This document shows positions 34,241 through 40,254 of a stretch of DNA of 43,521 nucleotides, in pieces. The DNA comes from Sedimenticola sp. Its GTDB lineage: Bacteria > Pseudomonadota > Gammaproteobacteria > Chromatiales > Chromatiaceae. The notes beneath the pieces were generated by a model. It did no database searches and had not been told where the DNA came from. It worked only from the letters and a program-made list of their open reading frames with translations. Every line of letters starts with the position of its first letter. Positions within the stretch are counted from its first letter, which is position 1. The position numbers were made by a program, and so were the translations under genes. The DNA lies in contig JALVEB010000021.1 of the NCBI GenBank assembly GCA_027008705.1, forward strand, positions 1 to 43,521, written 5' to 3'.

Positions 34241-35086
34241 TTACTCGGCTTCCTCAATGAGGGTTTCACGCAGATCGGAAGCCAGGCGATGGACGCCGTG
34301 ACAACGCGCGCAGACCCGAACCGCCAGTTCGCCGAGCGCGCGCCCGCCAGCCTTCACATCTCCGGCGGCGATCGCCGCGCCGAGCCGGTCGGCCGCCTGC
34401 CGATAGCCGGTGCCGAGAATACGCCCGCGTGGCGCGGCATCCTGGTGGCATTGGCCGCAACTTTCGCCAAGGTCTTCGAGACGACGCCCAAGCGCGGCGA
34501 GCGACTCGCCAGCGACCCGCTTGCGCCCGTCGCCGGCGGCGATCTTGACCCGGTTCAACAGCGTGCTCAGGCGTTCCATGACCTTATCAAACGCCTCTTC
34601 CTCCAGCGATTCGGAATCCTCCACGGTGATCCTCGAGAAATCCGGCGCGCGATACAGCACCGCGGCGATCGCGCGGTACTCGCGATGACAGGAACGACAG
34701 CTCGAACCGAGCTTGCGCAAGGCCTTGCCGGCCGCCTTGGCATCTCCGGCGCGCAATGCGGCATGCAACGCATCGAGCTGTTGGATATCCAACTCCTCGC
34801 GCCATTCCGGCACCATCTTACCGATGCTCCGATAGCCCTCGTCGAGACGCCGCGCCCACTTTCCCGCCAGCTTCGGCTTCTCCAACAAGAGGTACTCACT
34901 GACCGCCTGATAGGCGCGCCGCAGACCGAACATGGTGTGCAGCCAGACTTGGCGCTCATTGGCCGGCTTGTACCAACGCCCAAGCGAGGCCGGCGGCAAT
35001 TTCAGCGTGATCTCCCGCTCCGCTTCATCGGCGATGGCAAGCGAAACGAGGCCCAGCAGAAGGAATGAAATCAGAATTCGAATCAT
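34241..35086 (-). CDS. exported triheme cytochrome c
   Basis: A 281-residue protein with a signal peptide (MIRILISFLLLGLVSLAIA) and three heme-binding CxxCH motifs: C130-RS-CH, C210-GQ-CH and C259-AR-CH. The spacing, with helical stretches such as LHAALRAGDAKAAGKALRKL before each, suggests repeated cytochrome c'/c556-like helical modules, or a multiheme electron carrier. No membrane anchor beyond the signal is seen, so it should be periplasmic. I cannot name its redox partner. ATG 35086 gives the signal peptide; the longer frame upstream does not. It is followed without a gap by nei. Confidence 0.85.
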   Translation of the reverse strand: MIRILISFLLLGLVSLAIADEAEREITLKLPPASLGRWYKPANERQVWLHTMFGLRRAYQAVSEYLLLEKPKLAGKWARRLDEGYRSIGKMVPEWREELDIQQLDALHAALRAGDAKAAGKALRKLGSSCRSCHREYRAIAAVLYRAPDFSRITVEDSESLEEEAFDKVMERLSTLLNRVKIAAGDGRKRVAGESLAALGRRLEDLGESCGQCHQDAAPRGRILGTGYRQAADRLGAAIAAGDVKAGGRALGELAVRVCARCHGVHRLASDLRETLIEEAE

Positions 35087-35118
35087 CGGGAAAGGCTCAA
35101 TAGGGAAATCGCAACGCA

Positions 35119-35153
35119 TTATACTCGTCGCCCATGGGTTTTCGATTGTCGAA
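35119..35153. repeat. R2 repeat, copy D (single arm)
   Basis: TTATACTCGTCGCCCATG then GGTTTTCGATTGTCGAAACCG, matching the left arm of the 16426 copy over its first 18 bases. It lies just upstream of the cytochrome gene, at the left edge of the 758-base gap without protein genes. Confidence 0.55.
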
Positions 35154-35784
35154 ACCGATCCGCGCGCCCCGAACCAACATCCGGCGGACGTCGCGATCAG
35201 AAATTTCCTACAACAGCGCCAGCCTTCACCTATGTTCCCGTCCTCCGTCCTGAAGGATACTTTCTCCATCGGCACAGGGACGGGGCCAGGGAAAAGGAAC
35301 CAGGGCATCACAAGCCACGGGGCGGAAATCACCCCAGCATGGACAGCGAATCATGGAAGCCGACGGCAACGGAAACAACGGCCATGGATGCCGGTGAACG
35401 CCAGGAAACGGCGTCACGCACGCGATGGAGACAAGGAACGATGCACCGCTGAAGATTCCGCCGGACGCGGATCGATGCCTCGTCAGGGAACGACACACAG
35501 ACAACGCGGCCATGGGAGGTGGCCCGGAACAGCGGATGACGCCACACAACGGCGCCGTCCGGCGGGCGGGACGGCCCACACGGCGAGGGAAGCGCCACAA
35601 TGCATGGAATGCCAGGACACAAGGAGGTTTGCCAGGAAGGCGGGATCACAGGACAGGATCCTCCGGCCGGGCCAATGGACGGCCCGTCGGACCAGGTGAA
35701 GGGAAGCATTTCTTGTCGCCATCCACGGAAACCCTGGGACACCGGCGCAAGGAAGCGCGACGGAGACACAGATTGCCAGCCAAA

Positions 35785-35800
35785 CCGGCGACATCGCCGG
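35785..35800 (-). terminator. possible mnmE terminator hairpin
   Basis: CCGGCGA-CA-TCGCCGG is a perfect seven-pair stem. On the minus strand, downstream of mnmE, it is followed by TTTGGC, a short T tract. It shares bases 35796-35800 with the plus-strand terminator, so the two structures exclude each other. Confidence 0.4.
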
Positions 35801-35829
35801 GCCACACGGAGGTGGTCCGGCTTTTTTTT
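35796..35829 (+). terminator. strong rho-independent terminator, plus strand
   Basis: GCCGGGCCAC pairs with GTGGTCCGGC over ten positions (one G-U), loop ACGGAG, followed directly by eight Ts (35822-35829). Orientation is plus, and there is no plus-strand protein gene upstream before the zwf region, so it should end a noncoding transcript. Confidence 0.85.
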
Positions 35830-35844
35830 GGCGCCTGAGCAACG

Positions 35845-37182
35845 CTACTTGCCGATACAGAAAGAGGAAAAGATCTCGCCGAGCAGATCATCCGCGCTGA
35901 ATTCACCGGTAATCTTGGCAAGCGCCCGCTGCGCTTCGTGCAGATCCGCCGCCACCAGTTCGCCAGCATGGTGATCGAGCAGGGTATGGGTGGCACGCCG
36001 TAGCGCGCGATCCGCTTCCTCAATCGCGTCCAGATGCCGCCGCCGCGCGCTGAAGCCCCCTTCCTGCGCTTCATGGAAGCCGGCATGCCGCTTCAGAAAA
36101 GCGTGCAACAGGGAAAGGCCGCTGCCAACCTTCGCTGACAGCGCCACCTCCGGCACGCCATTGCGTTCCCGTTCCGCCGGCGGCTCGCCACAGCGGTCGA
36201 TCTGGTTGCGCACCAACAGGCGGGGGATCGCAAGCCCCGCCACCTCGGCATCGACCTTGGGCTCGCCCTCGCGGCAATCGTAGACCCATAGCACCAAGTC
36301 GGCCTCATCCAACGCCTCGCGCGCGCGGCGAATGCCCTCCTGCTCGATCGGGTTGTCGCTGTCGCGCAGACCGGCGGTATCGACCAGGTGCACCGGCAGG
36401 CCATCGATCTGGATGTGCTCACGCAGCAGGTCGCGCGTGGTGCCGGGGATCTCGGTGACGATCGCCGCGTCGGCGCGCGCGAGCAGGTTCAACAGGCTGG
36501 ATTTTCCGGCATTCGGGCGACCCGCCAGCACCAGCGTCAACCCTTCTCGCATCACCCGTCCCTGGTCGGCTTCCCGACGCAAAAGCTCGATCCGCTCCGC
36601 AAGCCGCGTCAAGCGCTGCTCCACGCGCCCGTCGGAAAGGAAATCGATCTCTTCGTCGGGAAAGTCCAGCGCCGCCTCGACGTAGACGCGCAAGGCCACC
36701 AGCTCGTCGACCAGTTCGCGCACGCGCCGTGAGAACTCGCCTTGCAAGGAACGCATCGCCATGCGCGCGGCCTGCGCGCTGCCGCTCTCGATCAGATCGG
36801 CGATCGCCTCGGCCCGCGCCAGATCCAGTTTGTCGTTCAGAAAGGCCCGTTCGCTGAACTCCCCGGGGCGCGCGAGGCGCGCGCCCAGTTCGAGACAACG
36901 GCGCAGCAACAGGTCCATGACCACCGGCCCGCCATGCCCCTGCAACTCCACCACCGGCTCTCCGGTGAACGAGCGCGGCGCCGCGAAATACAGCACCAAG
37001 CCCTCATCGATGGCCTCGCCATCGCCACCCCGGAAAACGCGAAAAGCCGCTTCACGCGGCTTCGGCAGGGTCTTGCAGATCGCTTGCGCGATCGCCGGAG
37101 CACGCGCGCCGGACAGGCGGACGACACCGATGCCGCCATGACCCGGCGGCGTCGCAACCGCGGCGATGGTATCGCGCTCCAT
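35845..37182 (-). CDS. mnmE: tRNA uridine-5-carboxymethylaminomethyl GTPase MnmE
   Basis: With MnmG it modifies the wobble uridine 34 of several tRNAs. 445 residues: an N-terminal folate-binding domain (MERDTIAAVATPPGHGGIGVVRLSG pattern, residues 1-25), a helical domain, and an inserted G domain with GRPNAGKSSLLN (G1), EIPGTTRD (G2), VDTAGLRDS (G3) and RNQID at G4. The usual G4 is NKxD, so Lys is replaced by Gln. The C-terminal catalytic CIGK is present. Six bases after yidC in the rpmH-rnpA-yidC-mnmE run. Confidence 0.96.
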   Translation of the reverse strand: MERDTIAAVATPPGHGGIGVVRLSGARAPAIAQAICKTLPKPREAAFRVFRGGDGEAIDEGLVLYFAAPRSFTGEPVVELQGHGGPVVMDLLLRRCLELGARLARPGEFSERAFLNDKLDLARAEAIADLIESGSAQAARMAMRSLQGEFSRRVRELVDELVALRVYVEAALDFPDEEIDFLSDGRVEQRLTRLAERIELLRREADQGRVMREGLTLVLAGRPNAGKSSLLNLLARADAAIVTEIPGTTRDLLREHIQIDGLPVHLVDTAGLRDSDNPIEQEGIRRAREALDEADLVLWVYDCREGEPKVDAEVAGLAIPRLLVRNQIDRCGEPPAERERNGVPEVALSAKVGSGLSLLHAFLKRHAGFHEAQEGGFSARRRHLDAIEEADRALRRATHTLLDHHAGELVAADLHEAQRALAKITGEFSADDLLGEIFSSFCIGK

Positions 37183-39724: not shown

Positions 39725-40254
39725 GTCGAGTCAATGGCATTTAAGGGCGCAGGCTGGCCATGACCCGCTCGCGCGGGCTTCTGATGCCTTGCCGTCTCGA
39801 ATGCCACAGGCGTCAAACCCTCCTTCCCGTTCGGCCCTTCGCTCCACCCGGTTTCCCGGGCTTCTTCGCTACTACGGCCTCTGCTGACTTCTCGCTCCGC
39901 CTCGCGGCGTCGCCCTTTACGATGGGCATCCTGCCCACCGCCCTTCGGCCGCGCTCCAGGCGCGGCTCGTCAGGCGTAAGGCGAGATCTCCCCAGGTAAG
40001 GTACGCTCCCCTTCACCGTACAACCGCCGGATTTACACCACTTCGCCTTGGCCACTGGAGCTTCGCGGTTCATGGCCCGCCCGCCCTGCTCGGCTGTGCC
40101 TTCTATCCAGTTCCTGTTCGTCGGCCCGCGGTTTACGCTACACGCTTCCTCCCCACGGTCGGCCACCCTTCCGCAGTGGCGCTTCGCTTCACTCGCCGTG
40201 ACCAGCTCGTGGCGGGACTTTCACCCGCAGGGGGGGCGCCCATGCTGGGCGCAC
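39725..40254 (-). mobile_element. 5' fragment of a group IIC intron
   Basis: On the minus strand the element begins GTGCGCCCAGCATGGGCG at 40254 and continues with GGGTGAAAGTCCCGCC, the 5' end and early domain I of bacterial group II introns of class C. Further in, CTTACCTGGGGAGATCTC and GAAGTCAGCAGAGGCCGTAGTAG match the conserved region before the intron protein in that class. The 5' end lies just past the cspA terminator, the site type favoured by IIC introns. A possible start of the intron protein (TTG at 39816, TPVAFETARH) runs only about 25 codons before repeat sequence. Reverse transcriptase and domains V-VI are missing, so it cannot move by itself. The left edge is approximate. Confidence 0.75.

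Follow-up and report, generated by a model that had tools for sequence, protein, structure and literature searches.

CsrA and RsmA recognize the word ANGGA in hairpin loops (PMC7652899), and RNAs of the CsrB family are reported to measure between 100 and more than 400 nt (PMC6262261). Escherichia coli CsrB (RF00018), a long non-coding RNA, presents many GGA words in loops, has an intrinsic terminator, and is preceded by a GacA/UvrY-type palindrome of 18 bp (PMC4682653, PMC5027483), for which the consensus is TGTAAGN6CTTACA (PMC4682653). In Pseudomonas, RsmX, RsmY, and RsmZ (RF00166 PrrB_RsmZ, RF00195 RsmY) combine an upstream GacA box with GGA hairpins. Pf1, Pf2, and Pf3 of Pseudoalteromonas fuliginea are lineage-specific Csr RNAs known by their GGA words, promoter, and terminator (PMC9927453, PMC11882849). 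For the Chromatiaceae, no description of an Rsm RNA was found in the literature searched.

The locus described here resembles each of these systems. It lies in a 43.5-kb stretch of Sedimenticola sp. DNA (the window, 43,521 nucleotides), in the gap between a cytochrome gene and mnmE (Table 1), and very probably encodes a CsrA-sponge RNA of the CsrB/RsmZ type that is unusually long. Four features place it in the CsrB/CsrC/RsmX/RsmY/RsmZ group: the GGA repeats; a GacA-type site at fixed spacing; csrA and gacA genes in the same genome; and short homologues in 41 of 61 genera. They speak against the new large class of non-coding RNA that an initial annotation of this DNA had proposed, and bear out its alternative, a very divergent RNA of known type. 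The window RNA is thus of a known kind and belongs to a lineage-specific sequence family, in enlarged form: a family-wide 3′ module joined to a 447-nt extension.

The locus and its GGA words

Table 1. Features of the predicted RNA gene and its flanks (positions in the window)
Feature	Position	Strand	Remark
Cytochrome gene (Cytochrom_C_2, Pfam)	34241 to about 35085	−	One flank of the gap
Predicted GacA/UvrY-type upstream activating site, GATCAG-AAATTT-CCTACA	35195–35212	+	Sequence kept in sister species (G002) and in family
Putative −10 hexamer, GATACT	35256–35261	+	Identical hexamer at equal spacing in G002
Predicted transcription start	near 35268	+	
CsrA/RsmA-sequestering RNA (predicted), ~562 nt	35268–35829	+	Motif excess; GGA in loops
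5′ extension with GGA hairpins, 447 nt	35268–35714	+	29 GGA, 15 ANGGA; missing from short relatives
Family-wide Rsm module	35715–35828	+	Model R1 match; covariation
Contents of Rsm module			Closing stem GUCGCC/GGCGAC; GGA hairpin GCGC-AAGGAA-GCGC; UUGCCAGCCAA linker; terminator stem
Intrinsic terminator, GGA in loop, eight T	35796–35829	+	Compensatory changes at stem position, 39 sequences
mnmE	35845–37182	−	Other flank of the gap

The initial annotation described a plus-strand non-coding RNA gene of about 560 nt with a start near 35268, and this outline holds: none of six open frames on the two strands of the cytochrome–mnmE gap has a Pfam match, and a terminator stands at the end. That terminator is as strong as had been claimed (10 pairs in a stem at 35796–35821, followed by the run of T) and is the only terminator-like site within 34900–36000. 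A protein gene, decayed or unannotated, could be argued from the mechanical frames of 119–255 aa that overlap the stretch; six such frames without a Pfam match, and a conserved part in the sister species that is the RNA module, make this reading so improbable as to be almost negligible. Neither Pfam nor Rfam revealed similarity to a decayed protein gene or a catalogued RNA family. The Rfam scan of 35000–35950 was empty even at E values up to 5, in agreement with the annotation, which had seen no match to RNase P RNA, tmRNA, 6S, or SRP RNA.

On the plus strand the predicted RNA contains 147 A, 56 T, 194 G, and 165 C, so the excess of A over T that had been remarked on is real; AT skew reaches a maximum of +0.56 at 35400–35599 and is about 0 within mnmE. 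The accompanying claim of a structured RNA is weaker than stated. Folded as a whole, the sequence has an energy no more than mildly below that of shuffles (z −1.9 on the plus strand, z −1.9 on the minus strand), so energy does not support the description "strongly structured". Similarly, the repeated words that had been listed do occur but are mostly short imperfect pairs; the most telling repeat, GGA/ANGGA, was overlooked.

This repeat is found 34 times as GGA, including 19 instances of ANGGA, on the plus strand of the RNA gene. Dinucleotide shuffles (n=3000) averaged 21.3 GGA and 5.5 ANGGA, with maxima of 31 and 15, so that both observed counts lie above every shuffle. ANGGA is absent from the minus strand of the same interval (0 instances), and no comparable density of GGA or ANGGA was found elsewhere in the window. 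The ANGGA count of the 5′ extension alone was reached by 0 of 2000 dinucleotide shuffles. Moreover, in predicted local structures the two G residues of GGA words are unpaired in 54% of cases, compared with 24% for GG pairs elsewhere in this RNA; the share in hairpin loops is 42% for GGA words and 14% for the other pairs (p 0.0002 at span 40; p <0.006 at other spans). The corresponding placement in the sister species (G002) is a trend only (p 0.04–0.18).

The expected protein partners are encoded in the genome. These are CsrA (G000:C114); GacA/UvrY (G000:C32), at 281 bits over the curated cut-off; and a hybrid kinase resembling BarA/GacS (G000:C22), whose best match, 644 bits, is below the strict BarA cut-off. 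Downstream of gacA is a UvrC-like frame; gacA beside uvrC is the classical neighbourhood.

Elsewhere in the window, adjoining the rnpA region, are two matches to group II intron D1-D4 (39834–39925 and 40001–40172, minus strand). The window contains no obvious reverse-transcriptase frame, and the two matches probably represent an intron remnant.

The family-wide 3′ module

A search of relatives for the upstream site yielded short GGA-rich RNAs of about 130 nt, mostly lying about 55 nt (55±2) behind the site. Six of these, chosen with the window's genus left out, were aligned to build covariance model R1, whose structure comprises the GUCGCC/GGCGAC closing stem and the terminator stem with its GGA loop. 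R1 finds a single match in the window's genome, the 3′ module (56.4 bits, E 2.2e-9 genome-wide), with both helices formed. Across the Chromatiaceae it matches 67 of 116 genomes, representing 41 of the 61 sampled genera. The assignment of these relatives to the Chromatiaceae follows from the genome of Candidatus Thiosymbion oneisti, in which the hits lie at the coordinates obtained for family member G114.

The covariation that the initial annotation had suggested looking for is present in this module. In an alignment of 39 sequences, 97% of cells pair, and compensatory changes occur in each of the two helices. Compensated double changes number 75 cells; the corresponding counts are 17±3 in shuffles and 7–13 with slid partners. 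The alignment was fitted to the model, which favours pairing, an effect that the slid controls answer in part. At the loci of five relatives Rfam gave no match at gathering score, and the family-wide module is unlisted in Rfam.

A genome with short relatives has one to four such RNAs, mostly with 5–8 GGA each. Some modules are adjacent: four stand in a row in one genome (G085; L199, G085:C7, 1052–2210), and pairs were seen in G059, G069, and G060.

Within the module, the linker UUUGCCAACCAAGCC is nearly invariant (alignment A4, columns about 89–103; window, about 35773–35784). It lies outside the GGA sites and is unpaired in the model. The invariant linker, GCCAACCAA, may have a second function, in base-pairing with a target or in protein binding.

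When all 591 bases were searched as DNA against relatives, the sister species and short matches were the only result, since what these RNAs conserve is their motifs and not their sequence. A rigid pattern search for the module found nothing, which is why a covariance model was needed. A scan of named genomes with MnmE returned distant genera only.

The upstream site and the 5′ extension

The candidate activating site stands 55 nt ahead of the predicted start. Its left half is degenerate, with three of six consensus bases. The sister species keeps the site, as GGTCAGACATTTCCTACA, together with GATACT and the opening bases of the RNA. Elsewhere in the family, short Rsm RNAs are preceded by TNTCAGN6CCTACA or by a full palindrome, for example TGTAGGAAAATTCCTACA. 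The pattern TNAGN6CCTACA occurs at only one other place in the whole genome. That second place was considered as another sponge RNA locus and rejected, since the following 700 nt contain only four ANGGA; no RNA of this kind other than the window RNA was found in the genome.

Spacing sets the window RNA apart. From the end of the best site match to the module, most of 37 family members measure about 55 nt (55–58) and a few measure 33–34 or 77–78 nt; the window measures 502 nt, versus 55 nt in the usual relatives. The distances cluster near 33, 55, and 77 nt, in steps of 22 nt, or about two turns of the DNA helix.

The additional length is the 5′ extension. Its diverged counterpart in G002 measures 361 nt and contains 22 GGA and 16 ANGGA. 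The two extensions hardly align, which, with the words kept, is the expectation if selection maintains the words and not the remainder. R1 detects a weak second module (17 bits) inside the G002 extension, and no internal copy above noise in that of the window. Directly upstream of the G002 site, reading by eye suggests the 3′ end and terminator of a further Rsm copy, cut by the contig end (L032, reverse strand, about 60–106; end of G002:C314).

Could the functional Rsm RNA be the 3′ 115-nt module alone, with its own start, and the 5′ 447 nt be unrelated or decaying? Such an arrangement would fit the short form of most relatives and the BLASTN alignment to the sister species, which covers just the last 98 nt or so. 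Yet it is the far 5′ end at which both species keep the upstream site, GATACT, and the first bases; the window's genome has no upstream-type site ahead of the module; and ANGGA exceeds all shuffles in both diverged extensions. A module acting alone is accordingly quite unlikely. Still less probable is that the locus represents a new class of large structured RNA, possibly with a catalytic function. Length, A-richness, and the missing Rfam match would suit it, but GGA words, site, module, and partners are all features of Csr/Rsm systems, and the extension diverges freely between sister species, unlike known large ribozymes.

The reading of the whole interval as one long sponge RNA leads to the question of its origin. 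In another genus (G004; L145, about 130–470, G004:C67), a GGA-rich stretch of 341 nt with 22 GGA follows a like site; it includes two GCCAGCCAAGCCC/ACCGACCAAGCCC words and lacks an R1 match. Long forms are therefore not unique to the window's genus. A possible, though rather doubtful, history is that one giant RNA took the place of the customary short Rsm RNAs in this genus, formed as GGA hairpins, with apparently a second internal module in G002, were added ahead of the ancestral Rsm module. If true, this would show a route from short RsmZ-like RNAs to long CsrB-like sponges.

Proposed action and comparison with known systems

The arrangement of the sequence suggests the following model. When the GacS/BarA–GacA/UvrY pathway is active, phosphorylated GacA would bind the palindromic upstream site, and transcription would begin at the predicted start. 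The transcript would pass through some 34 GGA words, many of them in hairpin loops, and end at the terminator. These sites would bind CsrA dimers and so titrate CsrA off mRNAs, relieving CsrA control. The 3′ 115 nt is the Rsm module common to the family, and the 5′ extension, present in two species of the genus, would multiply the CsrA sites on one RNA. Transcription, GacA binding, and the binding and sequestration of CsrA are all predictions from sequence features.

Together, these results supply a predicted Gac/Rsm sponge RNA for the Chromatiaceae, with a covariance model able to find its members. They also provide a test case for the evolution of CsrA-site number: one RNA with 34 GGA versus one to four RNAs with mostly 5–8.

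The short relatives are like Pseudomonas RsmX/Y/Z in size and layout, and often occur in several copies. The window RNA differs from the Pseudomonas RNAs in being over four times longer and in the UUUGCCAACCAAGCC linker within a GUCGCC/GGCGAC closing stem. RF00166 has no match in the whole genome, and the Rfam models for CsrB, CsrC, PrrB_RsmZ, and RsmY have none in 35000–35950.

E. coli CsrB measures 369 nt with 22 GGA (PMC5027483), against the 562 nt and 34 GGA of the window RNA, and its Rfam model gives no match there. The two also differ in the 3′ module and in the centre of the UvrY site, near −183 in E. coli and about −64 in the window RNA as counted from its predicted start. Likened by description, Pf1, Pf2, and Pf3 have at most 25 GGA (up to 25 in Pf1, PMC11882849) versus 34 in the window RNA; Pf1, like the window RNA, has a putative GacA site (PMC9927453, PMC11882849). 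With 562 nt and 34 GGA, the window RNA is larger than any CsrB-family RNA met in this non-exhaustive comparison with the literature.
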